Shown: one piece after another, positions 1 to 29,369 of the stretch
Layout: each line of letters opens with the position of its first letter
Numbering within the stretch: position 1 is the stretch's first letter
Source: Acetonema longum DSM 6540
GTDB lineage: Bacteria; Bacillota; Negativicutes; Sporomusales; Acetonemataceae
NCBI RefSeq assembly: GCF_000219125.1
Contig: NZ_AFGF01000076.1
Location: 4,769-42,585, forward strand
Direction of reading: 5' to 3'
DNA: 37,817 nucleotides
Made by a program: the position numbers and the translations under genes
The notes under the pieces: generated by a model
Seen by the model: the letters and a program-made list of their open reading frames with translations, nothing else
Databases searched by the model: none
What the model was told of the DNA's origin: nothing

Positions 1-401
1 GACCCAAGCATTTCATAGCCTCTCTGCTCGATTCGTTCCAGCAGATGAAAGTGTTTTTCCGGGAACAAATAGCGGAAAACCCTGCTGTTTCCCTGTTTTC
101 CCGGATGCATGGAGACCCTGAAAAGCGCCTGGAACATCAGCCGCAGTTGCTGCGGCGCCGGCTGGCAGCGGTCGATTTTATCACATTCCCGCATGATCAT
201 GGTAAAATAACGGACGGCAATGGCATCGAGGATTTCTTCCTTGGTTTGAAAATAGTAATAGAAAGTCCCCTGGGCCACCCCGATCTTTTTGACAATGTCA
301 CTGACCGAGGTTTTATCGTAACCATTAGTCAGAAACAGCTCTTCCGCCGCGTCAATCAGTTCATTGGTACGCTCCTGGGGATCTTTTGTCACTCTTGCCA
401 T
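1..401 (-). CDS. TetR/AcrR family regulator, C-terminus off the window edge
   Basis: The 133 visible residues begin MARVTKDPQERTNELIDAAE and contain a complete TetR-type N-terminal helix-turn-helix: the SVSDIVKKIGVAQGTFYYYF stretch is the classic recognition helix followed by the YYYF tail. The ligand-binding half starts but runs off the left edge, so the ligand cannot be guessed. The ATG at 399-401 follows a GGTGG-type ribosome site. A sigma-A-like promoter and a short palindrome lie just upstream (422-471), which suggests autorepression. It follows the Lpt/caspase-like operon on the same strand with about 100 bp between. Family call is firm; role is unknown. Confidence 0.9.
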   Translation of the reverse strand, partial: MARVTKDPQERTNELIDAAEELFLTNGYDKTSVSDIVKKIGVAQGTFYYYFQTKEEILDAIAVRYFTMIMRECDKIDRCQPAPQQLRLMFQALFRVSMHPGKQGNSRVFRYLFPEKHFHLLERIEQRGYEMLG

Positions 402-424
402 AAAAACCACCTCTACCATTCGAC

Positions 425-498: not shown

Positions 499-1392
499 CT
501 AATCCAGCTTTATCACTTGGATGTTTGGTTTTTTTCCTTTATATATGCGGGGATGTTGAACGCCGATATGCTGTATGGTTCTTAGGCTGCCGTACTCAAA
601 CGCCTCTGTCAGATGAATCGAATGATCCTGATTCGTATCAGCCGGGCCTGCCAGTCCTTCGATGAAATATTGGGTGAATATGCCCAGGGTCAAGCCTTTA
701 AATGAATCGTCATAGGCGGTTTCCGCATAGTCAGAGGAAACGATCACGGTAAAGCCATACATGCTCAAATCTCTGAATGCCCGATAAGGGCGTTTGGCGC
801 GGGATCTCTCAGAAAAGGTGTGGATTGTCTGATACCCGCGATTTTTGGAATAGCTGGGATCAATGATCACGGTCACGGTTGCCGGCAGTTTTTTTAAGAT
901 CATGGATAATTCCGAGGTGGTTACATGGCTTGCTTTGTCATAGCCGGCATCATAAGGGATCAGTGTCTCTTCGTACATATATTCGGAGCGGCCCCGGGCC
1001 AAGGTGCGGTCCGCATCGTATGACTGCCAATAAACCTGATTATAACCGCCGTGTCCGGAATAATAGATGATGAGATGATCTTCTGTCGTTAACAAGGCCT
1101 GATAACTGTATAGCTTGGCAGTAATGGCTCTTTTAGTCGCTCGGCTGTCGGTTAAAACAGCCACATCCTGCGCTTTACCTGAGAAGAACGCACCAAAAGC
1201 TTCGGCGTTTAGCAAGGGCGATTTTAACTCCGGCATATATTTGTACCGGCTGATCCCTATTGCCAATACATAGGGGGCGCGAGACGACGCAGCCGCGGGT
1301 TGGTCCGCCGCACCGGCCAGGACGGTTCCGCCAACCGGATTTATGCTGAGACAGATCAGGGCCGTCACTATATATTTTATCATTTTTTTCAT
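499..1392 (-). CDS. Secreted caspase-fold (peptidase C14-like) protein lacking the catalytic cysteine
   Basis: The 297-residue protein opens with a signal peptide (MKKMIKYIVT..., cleavage near residue 27-30) and then a caspase/metacaspase-like domain: YVLAIGISRYKY for strand 1 and LIIYYSGHGG carrying the catalytic His114. Where caspases have D-x-C-[FY]-S-G, this protein reads VIIDPSYSKN, so the nucleophile position is Ser180 (AGC codon, 853-855). The only cysteine is in the signal peptide. Proteolysis by the usual mechanism is therefore unlikely, and a binding or scaffold role is more plausible. The start was chosen at the second Met because GGAGGAG lies 8 nt before it. It is the last gene of the lpt-like operon, 30 bp after the lptC-like gene, so an envelope role is inferred from context. 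Confidence 0.8.
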   Translation of the reverse strand: MKKMIKYIVTALICLSINPVGGTVLAGAADQPAAASSRAPYVLAIGISRYKYMPELKSPLLNAEAFGAFFSGKAQDVAVLTDSRATKRAITAKLYSYQALLTTEDHLIIYYSGHGGYNQVYWQSYDADRTLARGRSEYMYEETLIPYDAGYDKASHVTTSELSMILKKLPATVTVIIDPSYSKNRGYQTIHTFSERSRAKRPYRAFRDLSMYGFTVIVSSDYAETAYDDSFKGLTLGIFTQYFIEGLAGPADTNQDHSIHLTEAFEYGSLRTIQHIGVQHPRIYKGKKPNIQVIKLD

Positions 1393-1422: not shown

Positions 1423-2364
1423 TCAATCCTGCCCGGTATGGACATTATATTGAAACTCAGATGTTCCCCGTTCAATATCATAGACCATTTTTTCCGAACG
1501 AATCCACCTCTTGTTGACTTGACAGGCCTTTACATTCTCTTCGAATGAAATTTGCCGCAACGTTCCGTCATAAACGGCTGTGTCACTATACACCTCGGCG
1601 CCGCCGGTTTCTACAAACAAAACGCCTTCAGCAAAAGTCAAGGCCCCATCACCGTCAGACTGATAATAAAACGAGCCTGCCGTCATGTCGCCGGCTTTCA
1701 TGGATAGCCTGGCCTCTTTCATCCGAAAAGTATTGTTTGTTACTGCAGCGGCATTAGACGCCTCATTCCGGTACGCCCCCTGAGGCGCTGATATTGTAAT
1801 GGCGTCGGCCGGGTCGCTATTCACCTGGTAGATCAGATCACCGAACCAGAAAACCTGTTGCGAATCCGGGTAAAAAACAAATTTTCGGGCGGTAATGGCG
1901 TCGCCATTTTCCCGCATAATCCGGACGTCAGAGCCTTTCAGTTCATGGTTCTTGGCATTCCAAACGGCTTGTCCGACAGTTAGGGTCATGGTATCCATCA
2001 TAAAGGTGATTCCCTCGGGGAAATCCACGTCACCGCTTAAAATATTATGATGGGCAGTCGAGGCGATAAAACGGACGGGGGCCGCCTGTTTACGAAAAAA
2101 ATGGCCTTCTTCAATATCAACAATGGTGGCCAGTGACTCCCCCTCTTTTTGTATGCTGTTGACCCTGGCCTGCCACTGCAGCTGCCCGCTGTGCCAGCCT
2201 GCTACGCGAGAATCCTCCACAATCATTTTTTCTTTAACCGTCGGCGCCGGAACCAAAGGGTCGTCGGCAAGACCACCAAAAACAAAGAGAGCGATGAAAG
2301 GCAGGGCAATCACGATCACGCTGAATTGTTCCGCTGACAGGTTCAGGTCTTTCCTACTTCGCAT
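1423..2364 (-). CDS. lptC: LptC-like LPS-transport protein with extended LptA/OstA-like C-terminus
   Basis: The 313-residue protein has a short cytoplasmic N-terminus and one membrane helix (about 15-33, VIVIALPFIALFVFGG), then a periplasmic all-beta region. W-x-A-type strands (GQLQWQARVNSIQ) and repeated 'hxGDVxF... hTLxxGxAxW' strands match the LptC/LptA jelly-roll superfamily. LptC tethers the LptA bridge to the LptBFG transporter in the inner membrane. At 313 residues it is longer than typical LptC (about 190), and the second half (from about residue 200, DMTAGSFYYQ... and YSDTAVYDG) looks like another OstA-like unit. It lies between the lptD-like and caspase-like genes on the same strand. 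The symbol is tentative because no sequence search was possible. Confidence 0.7.
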   Translation of the reverse strand: MRSRKDLNLSAEQFSVIVIALPFIALFVFGGLADDPLVPAPTVKEKMIVEDSRVAGWHSGQLQWQARVNSIQKEGESLATIVDIEEGHFFRKQAAPVRFIASTAHHNILSGDVDFPEGITFMMDTMTLTVGQAVWNAKNHELKGSDVRIMRENGDAITARKFVFYPDSQQVFWFGDLIYQVNSDPADAITISAPQGAYRNEASNAAAVTNNTFRMKEARLSMKAGDMTAGSFYYQSDGDGALTFAEGVLFVETGGAEVYSDTAVYDGTLRQISFEENVKACQVNKRWIRSEKMVYDIERGTSEFQYNVHTGQD

Positions 2365-2392: not shown

Positions 2393-4582
2393 TTAGGGAT
2401 TTTTAAAGATGAGTTCGGCAAAATACAATTTCTCTTCCGGATAAAATGACAGTATCAAATCACGACAATGGTATTTTCGAGTCAGCCAAATACCGGAAAC
2501 CACGGACACGTTGGACATTCTTTCAACCTTTACGCCATAAGACCAAATATCGGACAATACTCCCTCCAGATTGACCGAGGCCTCCGTCACCGCCTGGCGT
2601 TGAGTCTCATACTTCATTTGGATATACCCCGTCAGGGCGCTGTCGGGATTAAAGGTCAGATAGGCATGGTATTGATTCCATTCTTCCAAATAGGTGTCGT
2701 AGGCCGCGGAAACACTCCAATTCCAGAAGGGAAAGGTCCGGCCCTCCAGAGTCAGAGCGGTTACGGCTGCGGTATCCTCGGAAAAATTATGCTCCCCTTC
2801 TATTTTAAAGCGGTAATCTTCATCAAAGACATAATTCATGTCCCAGGTAGCCTTTTCTACATCCCTATATAGCCTGGTTTGATAAACCGAATTGTAGCCC
2901 TTGGCTGATTCCCGGGTCACGCCGGTAGTGAAATAAATTTGCCGGTTCAGGTTGATGAGAAAATTGGCGGAATGCCGCGTGTTGGTCATTCTGTTGTCAT
3001 CGCTGAATACCGTCTCGGTTGCATTGGCGGTATGCAGAAAAAATATCTGATCGCTTAGCTTCACCGGCAGGGAACGATAGGAAACTTCCATATCGGTTTG
3101 CTGCACCCGCGGCCGGTCTCTCCAGGAAACCTGCGAGGTGGCCAGGGCATACTGGAAGGGTGAGTCGGAGATCGTTCTTAGACTGAGTTTGGGTACTTCC
3201 CGCAGTTCATCCAGGGAATCGCTGGCGGATAATTGAGCGGACAGCCAATCACGCCGATAGTCCAACATCAGATTGTACCCGTTCTTTGTATTTTCCGCCG
3301 AAAATTGCTCTTCCCGCCGCCAATTCACCATTGCGTGCCCGGTCAAATTTTGGTCCAATCGTAAGGATTGAGACAGACTGCTGTTAACGACGGAGTAAGG
3401 CGCCAGTTGATTGTCCTGAAAAAAATATGTGGTGTTAAAATTAGTAGTCCGGAAATCATCCGAGGCCAGATAGCTGGCAGAAGCTTCCCATAGATCAGCT
3501 TTCCCAAACCAGCCGTTTTCCCGCCTCTCAAAGGATATGCGCTGGGACGAATCAACATGACTTAACTGCCATTCCCCCCGGAATATTTGGTTGTCCCGCC
3601 CGGGAGTGCCTGAGGCATACCAATACAGCTCGTTTTGGGATTTTTCTCCCTTACGGTATTCTCTGGCGCCAAAGCCAAGGCCTCTGCGGCTCATATAATC
3701 GCGATAACTCAAGCCATAATCCCGCCGATTCATGTCGTAACGGTTCTGAGTCTTAAGGTACCAACCTTCGTCGTCGTCATACCCTGCCGTTACTTTATCG
3801 TACAAAGGCAGAGTGACGGCTTCCAATTCAATGATTTTATGCTGTCCTTCCCAGTAAGCAGCCTTGGTGAGCCTCAGCTTTCGCGAAGAGGGATAATAAT
3901 CGGCTGTTTTGGCTGTATAGCGAAAGTGAGGCGGGTCTTGGTCGCATACCGTGACAGAGGCGTCTTCAGTGTGATAGGTATTGGACATGCAGGTCAGCTT
4001 TGAGCCTGATAATCTATAAGTTACCTCATCCAGGGTGAACAAAAAAGAGTATTTTTGAGCGTCGCTCACTTCACGCTCGGCATCATAGACTAAGGTGTCG
4101 GCGGATAGTATCTCGCCGGTTTTTAAATAGTGACGAACCCGGCCTGACATTTGAAATTTTTTTGTCTTGAGGTTGTATTCCAGCTTGTCGCCTTTATAGG
4201 TATCACCCTCATATTGCAGGGTAAAGTCATAAAAGATGTACACGCCGGTATTTTTATCGTACTCCATGCTATCGGCCTGCAGTTCACAGGTCTGATTCCG
4301 CTCGTTCATATTGCTGATGACTGCGGTGACAGAGCCTTTGGCGATCATCCTGCCGCTCTGCTCGTCATATTCCAGCGTATCCGAGGAGAATGAGCCGTCC
4401 TGATCGCTATACCGGATGTTGCCGGAGGCCGTGAAGCGATTCGACTGCTGATCATAGTGCAGTCTTTCCGATTTCAGCGATTCAGCGCTGGCGACCGAAA
4501 AGAAAGGATGTACGCCACCGGCACAGAGAATAGGAATCAACCCGATCATGAACCATTGCAAAATAATGGCTGCGTTAGGCAC
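2393..4582 (-). CDS. lptD: LptD-like outer-membrane protein (OstA N-domain plus beta-barrel)
   Basis: The 729-residue protein begins with a signal peptide ending near ASA (about residue 33). It continues with OstA-like repeats to about residue 250 (SERLHYDQQSNRF, SDTLEYDEQSGRM, ADSMEYDKNTG, GDKLEYNLKTKKF, ADTLVYDAERE), then about 470 residues of alternating aromatic strands ending AELIFKNP, like a barrel closing strand. LptD inserts LPS into the outer leaflet. Its N-domain receives LPS from the LptA bridge. The start is a GTG overlapping the lptF stop by 8 bp (GTGCCTAA), implying translational coupling. No LptE or LptB gene is in the window. Divergent members are sometimes annotated 'OstA family' or 'LPS-assembly protein'. 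Confidence 0.8.
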   Translation of the reverse strand: MPNAAIILQWFMIGLIPILCAGGVHPFFSVASAESLKSERLHYDQQSNRFTASGNIRYSDQDGSFSSDTLEYDEQSGRMIAKGSVTAVISNMNERNQTCELQADSMEYDKNTGVYIFYDFTLQYEGDTYKGDKLEYNLKTKKFQMSGRVRHYLKTGEILSADTLVYDAEREVSDAQKYSFLFTLDEVTYRLSGSKLTCMSNTYHTEDASVTVCDQDPPHFRYTAKTADYYPSSRKLRLTKAAYWEGQHKIIELEAVTLPLYDKVTAGYDDDEGWYLKTQNRYDMNRRDYGLSYRDYMSRRGLGFGAREYRKGEKSQNELYWYASGTPGRDNQIFRGEWQLSHVDSSQRISFERRENGWFGKADLWEASASYLASDDFRTTNFNTTYFFQDNQLAPYSVVNSSLSQSLRLDQNLTGHAMVNWRREEQFSAENTKNGYNLMLDYRRDWLSAQLSASDSLDELREVPKLSLRTISDSPFQYALATSQVSWRDRPRVQQTDMEVSYRSLPVKLSDQIFFLHTANATETVFSDDNRMTNTRHSANFLINLNRQIYFTTGVTRESAKGYNSVYQTRLYRDVEKATWDMNYVFDEDYRFKIEGEHNFSEDTAAVTALTLEGRTFPFWNWSVSAAYDTYLEEWNQYHAYLTFNPDSALTGYIQMKYETQRQAVTEASVNLEGVLSDIWSYGVKVERMSNVSVVSGIWLTRKYHCRDLILSFYPEEKLYFAELIFKNP

Positions 4583-5657: not shown

Positions 5658-5700
5658 AAAAAAGAGTGCCTGGAGAATTATGCAACCCTCCAGGCACTCT
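5658..5700 (-). terminator. Intrinsic terminator after lipoprotein gene, just upstream of lptF
   Basis: On the minus strand the 12-bp perfect stem GAGTGCCTGGAG / CTCCAGGCACTC (12-nt loop) is followed by TTTTTT. It ends the 5752-6171 gene. Because only about 12 nt separate the T-tract from the lptF start codon, it could also attenuate lptF. Confidence 0.85.
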
Positions 5701-5751
5701 TCCAGTAATCAGTGGTGCAAGCAAGCTAAGTCGTGCCTTTAGTTTGTTTGT

Positions 5752-6171
5752 CTAAAAGTATACGCGCTTAACCTCCAAACTCCTCGATTCAATAGTAATC
5801 TTGTACTTAACCTTCACATTGTTGTTAATCTCGCTCTGGCCATTCCACTGCAGTATCAGGTCGCGCCCGACGAACGCTGCAGTATACGTCTCTCCCTCAT
5901 ATATAAAGTGAGTCAGTTTATAATTTCCTACTTGGGTAGTAAATGTAGTAAACGCTCCATTTTCATCAGATGTTGCTTCACCTGGCGTCCCATCCGGCGC
6001 CTCATAATAGAACTTTACTCCTGGCAGATTCTTCTTTCCCGTGTAATCCGTTACCACGAAAGACGATGTGACACCTTTAGTACCGCCGCCGTCTCCGCTG
6101 CCGCCTCCGCAACCTGTGATCAAAAGAGTCATCGCAAAGAGTGTCAGGAGCACCAATGCAATCTTCTTCAT
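5752..6171 (-). CDS. Lipoprotein with one Ig-like/CarboxypepD-regulatory-like domain
   Basis: The 139-residue product starts MKKIALVLLTLFAMTL and has a lipobox (LITGC, Cys about 21) followed by a Gly/Ser-rich linker. A single beta-sandwich domain follows, recognisable from LPGVKFYYEAPDGTPGEATSDEN and GAFTTFT, the pattern of carboxypeptidase-regulatory or bacterial Ig-like folds that decorate surface proteins. No catalytic motif is visible. The start was chosen at the Met 5 nt after GAGGTG. It is paralogous to the upstream gene at 6399-7106, and the two share 3'-flanking sequence, so the pair arose by tandem duplication. Function is unknown; likely outer-membrane or periplasmic lipoprotein. 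Confidence 0.75.
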   Translation of the reverse strand: MKKIALVLLTLFAMTLLITGCGGGSGDGGGTKGVTSSFVVTDYTGKKNLPGVKFYYEAPDGTPGEATSDENGAFTTFTTQVGNYKLTHFIYEGETYTAAFVGRDLILQWNGQSEINNNVKVKYKITIESRSLEVKRVYF

Positions 6172-6398: not shown

Positions 6399-7106
6399 CT
6401 AAAACACGAGACTCACCTTGCCATCCGCTTGGATTTGGAGAGTGAATTCTTTTTGGTAAAGACTGATGCTCGCAGAATAGCTCCCGGACGGAGTTGAAAT
6501 GCTAATCACCGTGATGTTTCCTGGTTGAGTAACAGTTATGGAAGCAGAACCGCTTGCATTAGTCATTACAGTTTTCGACGTTCCATCCGACTCTTGATAA
6601 GAGATAGTTGCCCCGGATACCATGGCCCCGTTGTGATCTTTTACCCGTATAACCCGGTTGTCGCTGCTCGGGTTGTCACTACTCCCTCCAGATAATTCAG
6701 TAATTTTAAAACTATTGATGCCTATTATTTCACCTGTAGCGGTATTAATCTGAATAGGAAGCGGAATTGTGCCACCAGGCAACCCACCCTCCAATGTCAT
6801 AGGAATTCCATCTGGATATGACGAATGCGTATAGGCATTACCTTGATATACAATAGCATCTATCATAGTCGATCCCGTTTGGGTAATATATATACTGGCA
6901 ATGCCATTGGCATTGGTTTTTGCATTTTTTTGCGTCCCATCCGGGTCTCTATATTGGATAGTCGCCCCAGACACTGCATTAAGGGATTGATCTCCCACGC
7001 CAATTTGCAAAGTAACTCCTTTACTGCCGCCATCATCCCCGCCGCAACCTGCCGCCAAAAGGGCTAATGTGAACATTGCAAGTATTAAAAATGCCGGTTT
7101 CTTCAC
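6399..7106 (-). CDS. Lipoprotein with two Ig-like/CarboxypepD-regulatory-like domains
   Basis: The 235-residue product has a GTG start (VKKPAFLILAMFTLALLAAGC) 6 nt after GAGGTG and a clear lipobox (LAAGC). Two repeats of the same beta-sandwich follow: AVSGATIQYRDPDGTQKNAKT...NGIASIYITQ (about 45-85) and MVSGATISYQESDGTSKTVMT...SGSASITVTQ (about 160-200), joined by a Gly/Ser/Asn-rich linker. The single domain of the neighbour at 5752-6171 is the same unit, so the region contains three related domains. The fold suggests a surface adhesin or structural role, but there is no direct evidence for a ligand. Confidence 0.75.
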   Translation of the reverse strand: MKKPAFLILAMFTLALLAAGCGGDDGGSKGVTLQIGVGDQSLNAVSGATIQYRDPDGTQKNAKTNANGIASIYITQTGSTMIDAIVYQGNAYTHSSYPDGIPMTLEGGLPGGTIPLPIQINTATGEIIGINSFKITELSGGSSDNPSSDNRVIRVKDHNGAMVSGATISYQESDGTSKTVMTNASGSASITVTQPGNITVISISTPSGSYSASISLYQKEFTLQIQADGKVSLVF

Positions 7107-25253: not shown

Positions 25254-27941
25254 TCACTTGCTTAAGGCTGAACAGGCCCCCACCGCCTGCTGTTCCGGCA
25301 GCTGCCACTGTCCGGAAAAATCGGGCCGGGCGGAATCGTCTCGCCAGGCTTGACGATAGTCCTCAATAGCCTCCATGACCACATGGTATTTCTCGTAGAA
25401 CACAATGATCAAATCGTCGGGTTGCGCGTTTTCAAGCGCTGTCCGCACTGCATCAGTCTCAGACAGAACCAGATGGATCTTGTTTTCCGGGAATCCCGCT
25501 TCTATGACCCCCGCCCGCAAGAGTCCCGCTGTTTCCCCCGGCAGCCTGCCTCGCAAGTCCTGGTCTTCCTTGATATAGATCATATCAAATCCCTTGCCGG
25601 CAATACGGCCGTTATTCATAATCACGTCATCCCGGCGATCGCCGGGGGCGGCTATGACTCCTACCAGCCGTTTGGCTCCCAGGCGTCGGCTGGTATCAAT
25701 GATAGCCTGGTATCCGGCCGGGTTATGACCATAATCCACACAGATTCTAAAATCGTCCAGCCTGATGATATTGAGCCTGCCGGGGTTTTCCGCGAAACCG
25801 GACAATCCCTGGCGGATGCTCTCCAGGGGCAGCTTAAGACTATAACAGGCAGCAGCGGCGATGATGGCGTTTTGCAAATTGTGCAGGGCGATTCCTCCCA
25901 AAGTAGCCGGAATTTCCTCGGCTTTGATGATCGCCTGAGCCTGATTCCCGGTAGCGGCGTAAACAATTCCATCCTTGACGAAAAAAGCCGTGCCGCCTAT
26001 TCCTAAATGCCGCCGTACTAAGATATTGTCCTCGGCCGTACTAAAGTAGACGATCTCGCCCCGGGCTCTGGCGGCTAGTGTGCCGGCACGGGCGTCGTCG
26101 GCATTGACCAGGGCATAGCCCTCAGACTTGACCGTCTCCAAAACCAATGCCTTGGCATAGGCCAAATCATCCATATCTTCGATGCCATCCTGGCCCAAAT
26201 GGTCTTCGGTAATATTGGTAATGATGCCCACATCACAGCGGTCAAATGCCAGCCCGCCGCGCAGAATCCCGCCCCGGGCGGTTTCAAGCACTGCCACCTG
26301 GACGTTTGAGTCGGACAAAATGAGCCTGGCGCTGGCCGATCCGGTGGTATCGCCGTCCATGACACATTGCCCGTCGATATAAATTCCGTCCGTGGTCGTC
26401 ATGCCCACTTTGTAGCCAGCCTGCTGCCAGATATGGCCGATCATACGGGTGACCGTAGTTTTACCGTTGGTACCGGTAATAGCAATCACCGGTATCCTTC
26501 CCTGATCCCCGTCGGGGAATAAAGATTCAACGATCTGTCCGGCCACATCACGGGGTTTACCGGCGCTGGGGTAGTGATGCATCCGGATGCCGGGAGCGGC
26601 GTTCACCTCAATGATCGCCCCGACTTGTCGCAGAGAGCGGGTAATATCCGGCGTTACAACGTCAATGCCGGCCACGTCCAGACCAAGCACCCCGGCGGCC
26701 CGCTCAATCATGCGGCCGGTCTCGGGATGGACAATATCAGTGACATCCACTGCCGTACCGCCGGTGCTCAGGTTGGCATTTTCCCGGATCACGACGGTTT
26801 TATCCGCCAATGGTACCGATTGGCCGTTGAGTCCTTGTTTAGCCAGCACCACCATAGCTACGGCATCCATTCGTATTTTAGTCAGGGATTTTTCATGGCC
26901 ATCACCCCGGCGGGGATCGGCATTCACCGTATCGATCAACTGCTCCACCGTGCTGACGCCGTCTCCCGTCACATAGGCCGGCAGCCGCTCGGCTGCCGCC
27001 ACCAGTTTACCGTTTACCACACACAGCCGGTACTGCCGGCCGCTGATAAACTCCTCTACAATCACCCGTTCGTCATATTCGCGGGCAATGGCAAAAGCCC
27101 GTTCGGCTGCGGCATAGCTCCGGACGTCCAGAGTGACGCCCTTGCCTTGATTGGCATTGACCGGTTTAATGGCCACAGGCCTGTCTAAGTAAGCTAAAGC
27201 GTTAGCCGCTTCAGAAGGGGCGGTCACCACCATCCCTTCCGGCACCGGCAGGCCGGCATCAGCCAGCACCTGTTTGGTCAAGTGTTTATCCCCGGCCAGA
27301 TCCGAAGCTAGCAACCCGGTTTTATTAGTGACAGTCGCCCATACCTTTCGCTGTTTACAACCATAGCCCAATAGCAGGAGATCTTCTGAGCCAATCCGGG
27401 TCACTGGAATATTCCGTTGGCAGGCCGCATCGTATATGGCCTGAGTGCTTGGTCCCAGCCGGTCGGCATCCTTCATCGCCCTCAGCCGGGCAATAAGATT
27501 TGGGAGATCCGCAGCCGGGTTTTGTTCTTGCGCTCCATAGGCGGCAAGCAGAATGTCAAGAGCGGTTTGAGCGGCCGCCCTGGCCAGAGACTCGGACTGA
27601 TAACCGACGACTACATTATAGATTGCTTTTTCGCCGCTCCATCGGGCTTTGCCGAATCGGATGTCGCAACCGGCCAGAGTTTGAAGTTCCAGAACGATAT
27701 GTTCAAAAATGTGGGCCCCATAGGTACCCTCCCGCAAACGCATGACAAAGCCGCCAGGCAGGCCATAAGAACACTGATGTTCAGCCAGGCCAGGCAGCCA
27801 GGCCAGCAGCTTATCGACAAAATCCCCGAAAGCGTTACTGGCAATGCTTTCGTACCCGCCTAAATCCAGCCTCACCTGCAGCACCGGGCGATAGCTGTAG
27901 AGATTCGGCCCCTTTAGGGTTCGTACCGACAAGATCTTCAA
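25254..27941 (-). CDS. cphA: Cyanophycin synthetase
   Basis: The 895-residue ligase starts LKILSVRTLKGPNLYSYRP, the usual CphA N-terminus. It has an ATP-grasp domain (about 210-480; DRPVAIKPVNANQGKGVTLDV, IVEEFISGRQYRL) that adds Asp to the backbone, and a Mur-ligase-like domain from about 485 (P-loop GTNGKTT at 490-496, NLQNAIIAAAACY, VDYGHNPAGYQ) that adds Arg. The product is multi-L-arginyl-poly-aspartate granules, a nitrogen reserve. The start is a TTG, 9 nt after GAGGTG. The frame is open to 28004, but that extension translates the edge of repeat E4. The cyanophycinase gene lies upstream on the same strand. Confidence 0.95.
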   Translation of the reverse strand: MKILSVRTLKGPNLYSYRPVLQVRLDLGGYESIASNAFGDFVDKLLAWLPGLAEHQCSYGLPGGFVMRLREGTYGAHIFEHIVLELQTLAGCDIRFGKARWSGEKAIYNVVVGYQSESLARAAAQTALDILLAAYGAQEQNPAADLPNLIARLRAMKDADRLGPSTQAIYDAACQRNIPVTRIGSEDLLLLGYGCKQRKVWATVTNKTGLLASDLAGDKHLTKQVLADAGLPVPEGMVVTAPSEAANALAYLDRPVAIKPVNANQGKGVTLDVRSYAAAERAFAIAREYDERVIVEEFISGRQYRLCVVNGKLVAAAERLPAYVTGDGVSTVEQLIDTVNADPRRGDGHEKSLTKIRMDAVAMVVLAKQGLNGQSVPLADKTVVIRENANLSTGGTAVDVTDIVHPETGRMIERAAGVLGLDVAGIDVVTPDITRSLRQVGAIIEVNAAPGIRMHHYPSAGKPRDVAGQIVESLFPDGDQGRIPVIAITGTNGKTTVTRMIGHIWQQAGYKVGMTTTDGIYIDGQCVMDGDTTGSASARLILSDSNVQVAVLETARGGILRGGLAFDRCDVGIITNITEDHLGQDGIEDMDDLAYAKALVLETVKSEGYALVNADDARAGTLAARARGEIVYFSTAEDNILVRRHLGIGGTAFFVKDGIVYAATGNQAQAIIKAEEIPATLGGIALHNLQNAIIAAAACYSLKLPLESIRQGLSGFAENPGRLNIIRLDDFRICVDYGHNPAGYQAIIDTSRRLGAKRLVGVIAAPGDRRDDVIMNNGRIAGKGFDMIYIKEDQDLRGRLPGETAGLLRAGVIEAGFPENKIHLVLSETDAVRTALENAQPDDLIIVFYEKYHVVMEAIEDYRQAWRDDSARPDFSGQWQLPEQQAVGACSALSK

Positions 27942-27992
27942 AATGTTTGACACCTCTTTTATTTTTGCAAACTCATGAGCCGTCTCGAGCCA

Positions 27993-28336
27993 GAGACCGT
28001 TCAAAAAGGTTCAGATGCTAGGTAAGAGCACCGCCTGCGTTGCCGTACTAAAGGAATTTAAATGACTTTTCGGCTTATAAGAAATCATTCGCTACTGCCT
28101 ATCTCCCGAAAAATCACAAATTCTAATGCAGCGCAACGAGGACGGGCGTGAGACTGTACGTTCGCAGGGTTCGGCGAAAGCTGGAAAGAAGCGAAGCCTC
28201 ATGAAAGTAGGAGAAAGTAAGGTGCTTTTCGAGTAGTCACAACGAAGTAGCTATCTAAAATAACCCGAAAAGTACTACTTTCTGAACTACCCGCCTCAGG
28301 AAGCGACGATGCAGATGGGCCTTTTTCAACGGTCTT
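27993..28336 (-). repeat. Intergenic palindromic repeat E4 (composite, longest copy)
   Basis: This 344-bp copy occupies nearly all of the cphB-cphA junction. Outer arms are GAGACCGTTCAAAAAGG / CCTTTTTCAACGGTCTT. It carries the second hairpin (GACTTTTCGG / CCGAAAAATC) and, inserted beside the GTAC loop, an extra roughly 110-bp module with its own stem (AGAAAGTAAGGTGCTTTTCG / CGAAAAGTACTACTTTCT). Its right arm encodes the stop codon of cphB. Confidence 0.85.
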
Positions 28337-29138
28337 CCACCATAAATGGTTGACGACGTCTTATATCAAAGCCGAATCCTGCCGGCAAAATGTGCAGGAG
28401 CACGTTAGTAAGGGCCAGCGGGTCATTCGGTTGGGACTCGGATATATTGGAGTGCAGGATCTGTTTGCCGTCGGCAATGGTTACAGTCTGGGTACCAACC
28501 ACCGTCGAGCGCCCCTGAGGATTTACCAGGAGAGCAGTATCTTCATCAATACCCACCCCCAGCACAAAGGGGTTTTGCGCCACCGCCGCCAGGATCCGGT
28601 TCATCCGTCCCCGTTGGGCGAAATGCTGGTCAATTACTACATCGGTCAAAAGTCCCATGCCATGGGCCATGCTGAGACTGGACTTTTTGGGAGTATCGCT
28701 GGAGTCCCCTTCCACGATCATGGTATTGCTCATCACTGAGGCGCCGGCGCTTGTCCCGGCAATAACTGCTCCTCTGGCGTGAGCCCGGCGTATGGCCTCA
28801 TCGGCGCGGGTGCCGCCAAGGATGCTGGTTAGCCGCAATTGGTCGCCGCCGGTGATGAAGATCCCGGTGGCACTGTCGATTTCCCCGGCCTGGCACCGGT
28901 CGTTGGCAGTCTCCCGGTCATCAATGTAAATGATAGAGCAGGAAACCGCGCCCAGGTTTAAAAACAGGCTGCGATATTCACTGCCCACTTCCCGGGGATA
29001 CTCAGTGGCAGTGGTGATCACGGCAATCGCAGCCTCCCGGCCTTGGGCCAGCGCCAAAAAATGGCGCAATATCAGACAATCACCCTGCTTGTCCTCATTG
29101 CCGCCGATGACCAGCAAGTCGCCTTCCCCTTTCCCCAT
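28326..29138 (-). CDS. cphB: Cyanophycinase
   Basis: The 270-residue serine exopeptidase (family S51) releases beta-Asp-Arg dipeptides from cyanophycin. It starts GKGEGDLLVIGGNEDK, has IFITGGDQLRL, and carries the nucleophile motif GTSAGAS (Ser130). GVGIDEDTALLV is also typical. The ATG at 29138 was chosen because AAGGAG lies 9 nt before it and the length then matches the family; the open frame extends 43 codons upstream. The final Asp-Arg-stop is encoded by repeat E4. It is paired with cphA downstream, giving a make-and-break module for the polymer. Confidence 0.95.
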   Translation of the reverse strand: MGKGEGDLLVIGGNEDKQGDCLILRHFLALAQGREAAIAVITTATEYPREVGSEYRSLFLNLGAVSCSIIYIDDRETANDRCQAGEIDSATGIFITGGDQLRLTSILGGTRADEAIRRAHARGAVIAGTSAGASVMSNTMIVEGDSSDTPKKSSLSMAHGMGLLTDVVIDQHFAQRGRMNRILAAVAQNPFVLGVGIDEDTALLVNPQGRSTVVGTQTVTIADGKQILHSNISESQPNDPLALTNVLLHILPAGFGFDIRRRQPFMVEDR

Positions 29139-29369
29139 CGCCAGCTTCTCCTTTTGCCACAACAAATTCTTGTCTTGTAATTTCTCGATCTGTATTATTT
29201 TTGCCAATTCCGGCGGAATTTTATGCAAAAATTGCATCCGGTAAACAGCTGACGGCCAACTGACCAATTCTCAGTCGAAAGCATATACTATCGCGGAAAG
29301 ATCTCCAGATTCGAGGTTGCAGACGAATTTTACAACAGATTCCTAATATTTTAAGAGAGGAGTGAAAAA
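29139..29369. other. Divergent intergenic region between cphB and the L,D-transpeptidase gene
   Basis: About 230 bp. Positions 29306-29345 are a copy of short repeat R2 (CAGATTCGAGG ... CAGATTCCTA). No convincing sigma-A promoter is seen for either gene. Confidence 0.45.
29306..29345 (+). repeat. Short repeat R2, solitary copy
   Basis: This 40-bp unit is bounded by imperfect direct repeats CAGATTCGAGG and CAGATTCCTA around TTGCAGACGAATTTTACAA. The same unit occurs at 33981-34021, partly at 35093-35116, and inside E9. Confidence 0.6.

Follow-up and report, generated by a model that had tools for sequence, protein, structure and literature searches.

Why should a gene for a caspase-fold protein stand at the end of an operon for lipopolysaccharide (LPS) transport, and what could its product do there when the residue that would make it a protease is gone? 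The question is raised by a stretch of 37,817 nucleotides from Acetonema longum DSM 6540 (hereafter the window), in which such a gene follows lptF, lptD and lptC. Its reading frame runs from an ATG, with GGGAGGAG as the ribosome site 5' of it, to a stop codon, and the product matches the caspase/Peptidase C14 domain profile PF00656 with 49.7 bits (E 5e-13; cut-off 21.4). The motif YYSGHGG contains His114, whereas in the motif VIIDPSYSK the nucleophile position is taken by Ser180, such that the His-Cys dyad of an active caspase-type cysteine protease is lacking. The sole Cys of the protein, C14, lies inside a predicted signal peptide, a call made by eye rather than with a predictor. A preliminary description had reported the retained His114 in SGHGG, the Ser in place of Cys, the lack of any other Cys in the mature protein and an export signal; its statements about the sequence are all correct, and the export signal is supported at the level of inspection by eye. 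With a prokaryotic p20 domain and a substituted dyad, the product is a putative pseudo-orthocaspase.

A search of PDB sequences with the product returned no match at E 1, and its fold was assessed from an AlphaFold (AF2) model (pLDDT 80.6, pTM 0.79). Foldseek matched this model to MALT1 at E 6e-12, and its best VIA Z score, 21.4 over 212 residues with an rmsd of 3.0, was obtained against GSU0716 (3bij_C); the other structural matches are metacaspases and caspases. The predicted model thus has the three-dimensional fold of a caspase, and here the profile and the model bear out the caspase-like fold first proposed for this protein.

Among 60 genomes searched, the window's own included, an ortholog was found at L093:11944-12837 (E 1e-47) in a genome of the same order and a different family (G013; the window genome is G000); besides this ortholog, the same genomes gave one weak half-length match, in G043. 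The window and G013 caspases are 36% identical over their full length, with YYSGHGG and RDLSMYG unchanged in both. In G013 the nucleophile motif reads LDCAYS: Ala occupies the place of the nucleophile, and the residue before it, right after the conserved Asp, is a Cys (Cys175). Loss of the nucleophile is hence a property of the pair and no isolated mutation, and a single mutation or sequencing error at Ser180 is ruled out. The preliminary description had named the case that would reduce the substitution to one mutation, namely Cys kept by orthologs in the same context; the only such ortholog, that of G013, has Ala. An alignment of 92 rows, comprising the two proteins and 90 homologous ORFs of other genomes from a scan of genome contigs, has Cys in the nucleophile column in 89 rows, with Ser in the window protein, Ala in that of G013 and Gly in L051. 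One of the patterns used to gather the homologues contained SGHG, which biases the count of His but leaves that of Cys unbiased. The contig scan yielded only caspases of 23-35% identity. A plasmid origin was also considered and rejected, with only two distant caspases found.

Two readings would keep catalysis in the family despite these substitutions. The first is that the nucleophile has moved, with G013 using the Cys one residue earlier and the window copy being its dead derivative. The place of Cys175 directly behind the conserved Asp speaks for this; however, several homologues have Cys at both places (LDCCHA in L049), the second of them aligned as the nucleophile, and adjacent side chains at the end of a strand generally face opposite ways. 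We regard a moved nucleophile as scarcely credible. The second reading, that the window protein is still an enzyme, a serine hydrolase of caspase fold with Ser180 as nucleophile, can draw on the retained His114 and SGHGG and on the fact that Ser is a chemically possible nucleophile. Yet the Ala of G013 means that a Ser mechanism is not common to the orthologs, and the available text of PMC6426788 treats dyad losses in the family, His-Ser among them, as pseudo-enzymes, so that this reading seems very unlikely to us.

To see how far the pairing extends, Negativicutes were surveyed, as the preliminary description had advised. A profile built from the caspase pair gave full-length matches only in G000 and G013 among 380 genomes of the class, with partial matches in four others. 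The missing nucleophile thus recurs in the one ortholog, but the module is rare (2/380), and the pseudo-caspase as a general trait of the class is ruled out. A PF00656 scan of the same 380 genomes found caspases in nine and failed to recover the known gene of the window, so the negatives of such scans are to be read as lower bounds.

The genes around the caspase are listed in Table 1. They run in the order lipoB, lipoA, lptF, lptD, lptC and caspase, the last being fourth counting from lptF, as first described and in agreement with the coordinates and junctions: lptF and lptD overlap by 8 nt, and gaps of 28 nt and 30 nt separate lptD from lptC and lptC from the caspase gene. The G013 locus reads lipoprotein, lptF, lptD, lptC and caspase, followed by a convergent lipoprotein gene, and stop and start codons overlap there at three junctions, including that between lptC and the caspase gene. 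Every type of module gene has its homolog in the other genome. The LptC-like protein is 27% identical to the G013 protein at the same position (L093:10694-11947); alone it has no Pfam match, and a profile of the pair retrieves LptC (PF06835) proteins in other Bacillota lpt operons. The LptD-type protein is 30% identical to its G013 copy and matches LptD_N (E 2e-9) with no match to a barrel-domain model; its putative identity as LptD draws further on its place in the operon and on partial similarity to LptD-like proteins from other Bacillota. A full-length match to it was found only in G000 and G013 among the 380 class genomes. Of the lipoproteins, lipoA is homologous to those flanking the G013 module on both sides, and lipoB is homologous to lipoA as well as to the G013 lipoproteins.

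Table 1. Features of the caspase-lpt locus, with positions counted along the window
Feature	Position	Strand	Basis
Pseudo-caspase, predicted to be exported, 297 aa	499..1392	-	PF00656; His114 kept, Ser180 at nucleophile position
LptC-like bridge protein, 313 aa; single membrane segment at the N-terminus (by eye)	1423..2364	-	Place and pair profile
Putative LptD-type outer-membrane protein, 729 aa, GTG start, LptA/OstA-like N-terminus	2393..4582	-	PF03968
LptF-type permease of second Lpt set, 356 aa	4575..5645	-	PF03739, E 9e-72
Perfect 20-bp hairpin and U tract, terminator- or attenuator-like	5660..5703	-	Fold energy against shuffled sequences
lipoA, small Gly-rich lipoprotein, Ig/SpaA-like domain	5752..6171	-	PF17802, E 4e-4, below cut-off
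lipoB, lipoprotein, two Ig-like repeats, CarboxypepD_reg/Big_1	6399..7106	-	PF13620, 39.3 bits, and PF02369, 41.9 bits, both over cut-off

The hairpin ends about 15 nt before the lptF start and folds at -35.7 kcal/mol, against a mean of -22.7 for shuffled sequences (z -4.2). Since no room is left for a promoter between the two, it may serve to attenuate the operon; as a strong terminator-like element between the lipoprotein genes and lptF, it may also mean that these are not co-transcribed in the window. Beyond the caspase gene, positions 3-419 (minus strand) and 443-471 hold a TetR regulator gene with a near-consensus promoter of its own (11/12) and, beside that promoter, a palindrome; the caspase gene is hence probably the last of the operon. 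No match to Rfam was found in the window. Elsewhere on the minus strand of the window, genes for a cyanophycin-synthetase-like protein (25254-28004) and a peptidase family S51 protein (28326-29267) adjoin and probably form a pair for cyanophycin synthesis and breakdown, and a YabG peptidase (PF05582; 35155-36078) suggests a spore former with an outer membrane.

The surroundings of the caspase gene had been described as an LPS-transport operon. That the gene sits in an lpt operon holds, but the operon is not the housekeeping one. The window genome has a separate lptA-lptB-lptF set away from the module, and G000 and G013 each encode a further LptF elsewhere, adjoining LptB and an LptA-like gene. 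The module has an LptF/LptG-type permease (PF03739) but encodes no LptB ATPase: an LptB of the LSGG type is absent from the window, from L095 and from the G013 locus, and is present beside the housekeeping lptF. An ABC-F protein is present in L093. Between G000 and G013 the housekeeping LptF proteins are 71% identical and the module LptF proteins 39%, while module and housekeeping LptF share 23-26% (23-25% for the window's LptF). In a tree of 30 LptF proteins, three of them from long frames trimmed to 420 residues, the module pair (support 100/100) does not group with the class's housekeeping LptF, and its neighbors are LptFs of other classes in the phylum, which have the order lptF-lptD-lptC in common with the module; the LptF clade of the class (100/100) holds housekeeping and other duplicated copies, together with one LptF from another class (L171). 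A recent duplication of the housekeeping operon is ruled out by the separate set, the tree and these identities. As judged from its genes, the module is a second, foreign-looking Lpt set. Its type is known from classes elsewhere in the phylum, and two families of this class probably gained it or have kept it since ancient times. Rapid divergence or independent gain would explain the distance between its two copies. Seven genomes of the window's order (L098-L104) have a different second LptF, which falls inside the class's own LptF clade, and no caspase match was found in the stretches fetched around these copies.

The divergence of the module also bears on whether the caspase is simply a decaying gene, a protease that became useless after acquisition and has drifted since. 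Decay would fit its presence in so few genomes of the class, the different residues that the two copies carry at the nucleophile position, and the far greater divergence of the module LptF than of the housekeeping LptF. It fits poorly with frames that are intact, similarity that spans the full length, two motifs without a change and a core fold that is confidently predicted, and we consider decay improbable.

Relatives of the module were traced through the phylum. LptD-type genes were matched in 58 of 398 phylum genomes, counting the window's own (E 1e-15 or better); the matches in the 57 others are partial, at E 1e-16 to 4e-35. Surroundings were fetched for 18 of the 57. At these Bacillota loci lptF is adjacent in 16/18 and an lptC match occurs in 10/18, sometimes with lptA, such that the order lptF-lptD-lptC(-lptA) is common to the module and other Bacillota. 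None of the 18 lpt loci has a caspase nearby, which makes the link between caspase and lpt specific to G000 and G013.

Of 299 phylum genomes, 26 match the caspase pair profile; one of these is the window genome, and 23 of the 25 others are also among the 58 with an LptD-type gene. In all 23, on comparison of the two listings by eye rather than by script, the related caspases are encoded away from the lpt genes, and common descent alone could account for the co-occurrence of the two. From those 23 genomes 25 related caspases were aligned, some in frames that end at contig ends. By a simple pattern 17 of them have a lipobox, with one further match (G649a) judged spurious and left uncounted. An N-terminal CarboxypepD_reg-like domain was found at E 0.01 in 9 of 10 that were scanned, 5 of the 10 at or over the cut-off, and 8 of the 10, from genomes with an LptD-type gene, combine it with PF00656 (E 0.01). 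The same CarboxypepD_reg domain occurs in lipoB of the window. The His-Cys dyad is kept in 20 of the 25; in the other five, which come from a single family, at least one of its two residues is missing. A tree of 66 caspase domains gives the module pair good support (100/99) and shows the lipoprotein caspases as its nearest neighbors by path, joined by a branch with support of only 77/83. Of the 90 homologous ORFs, the 39 that span most of the query entered this tree and the alignment behind the structure model.

Some of these relatives have features of their own. A clade of lipoprotein caspases from one Bacillota family (L217, L223, L227, L228 and L213), with SGYA beside LDVAYA and SGHA beside LDANYSG, is apparently an independent pseudo-caspase lineage. 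The neighbors of the lipoprotein caspases are varied, and none is common across families. Four loci (L215, L221, L222, L224) share genes that resemble, by eye, a MacAB-type efflux set near the caspase, and in three (L214, L216, L218) the caspase has, encoded beside or near it, a further and longer member of its own protein cluster (531-569 aa).

These relatives supply the chief rival to a role for the pseudo-caspase in the transport machinery, namely that it is an envelope or surface protein unrelated to the Lpt bridge, in a module inherited as a block with surface lipoproteins. That related Bacillota caspases are often lipoproteins, located away from lpt with varied neighbors, is consistent with such a passenger, as is the occurrence of the C14 fold in many types of operon according to the portion of PMC3501461 available. 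Against it, the caspase gene is joined to lptC in both genomes, by the short gap or the codon overlap, though the proteins of the module are only 27-39% identical. We consider a passenger unlikely, if still a serious contender.

The reading that we favor, tentatively and a little short of calling it probable, is that the pseudo-caspase serves, without catalysis, as an envelope subunit in a second Lpt-like bridge, one that uses the housekeeping LptB. It is suggested by the loss of the nucleophile in both orthologs at so low an identity and by the terminal position of the caspase gene in both operons, together with the predicted fold, the separate housekeeping set, the lineage of the module LptF and the fusion of caspase and CarboxypepD_reg domains in related lipoproteins. 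LptF-type permeases work with LptB, and a periplasmic bridge made of LptC, LptA and the LptD N-terminus leads to the LptD barrel. Lacking an LptB of its own, the module would need the housekeeping ATPase; an LptF homodimer would work with that LptB, and the periplasmic bridge would consist of the LptC-like protein together with the N-terminus of LptD, which is LptA-like. Even when inactive, a caspase fold has a cleft that can bind peptides, which is why a non-catalytic binding subunit is proposed: the nucleophile-less caspase would hold a polypeptide in the old substrate cleft and in this way help to assemble or gate the second bridge. The most likely polypeptide would be one of the module's lipoproteins or a loop from either LptD or LptC. 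We infer the protein's envelope location, its inactivity and its partner, as we do the module's cargo and its use of LptB. A role in outer-membrane assembly, as first suggested for this gene, is plausible. A bolder version, in which the second bridge carries to the surface the module's Ig-like lipoproteins, or some lipid that is bound to these, with the dead caspase as a peptide-binding gate or receptor, strikes us as rather unlikely. Were this version true, a protease fold would have been recruited as an adaptor in lipid-transport machinery. Most of the known bacterial pseudo-caspases lack an assigned function; the one described here is linked by its position, in two families, to a defined machine, which makes the case testable.

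Pseudo-orthocaspases as such have been described before (PMC6426788, PMC3501461, as far as their available texts go). According to the former, 8.6% of bacterial orthocaspases are without the dyad, His-Ala occurs, and the groups described are mainly from Cyanobacteria and Alphaproteobacteria. The window and G013 proteins share with them a p20 fold that has lost its His-Cys dyad; they differ in that the pair is His-Ser or His-Ala, in apparent export (by eye) and in their place in an lpt operon, a context that does not appear in the available portion of PMC6426788. Nor did the literature on lptF with caspases, on pseudoproteases with LPS transport or on second Lpt copies, to the extent that its text was accessible, report a caspase-fold protein in an lpt operon, and with no earlier report found, the arrangement appears to be a new variant of known systems.

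Closest among the caspases are the CarboxypepD_reg-caspase lipoproteins of other Bacillota classes, which, as lipoproteins with an Ig-like domain, are reminiscent of genes that stand apart in the module. In contrast to the module they are fused, they usually keep His-Cys, and they do not lie beside lpt; the two halves of these fused proteins have their likeness in the module's Ig-like lipoproteins and its caspase, which are encoded separately. For the transport genes, the accessible part of PMC5007114 describes diderm Bacillota Lpt systems with a single LptF/G-type permease and OstA-like proteins, both of which the module shares, and, in Negativicutes and Halanaerobiales, a cluster of four genes that includes LptB but has no clear counterpart of LptD/E. 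The module differs from these in having a gene for a putative LptD-type barrel, in lacking LptB and in being a second copy, and it indicates that some outer-membrane Bacillota keep a second, differently descended Lpt set beside the housekeeping one. Such a set bears on non-LPS cargo of Lpt systems and on the evolution of the outer membrane in the phylum. Borrelia, which is without LPS, has an Lpt-like system for which the authors, in the text available of PMC10353723, favor a glycolipid cargo and argue against lipoprotein. That text mentions neither a caspase nor a second Lpt set, in which the Borrelia system differs from the module, but it does suggest that the cargo of such a bridge may be other than LPS.
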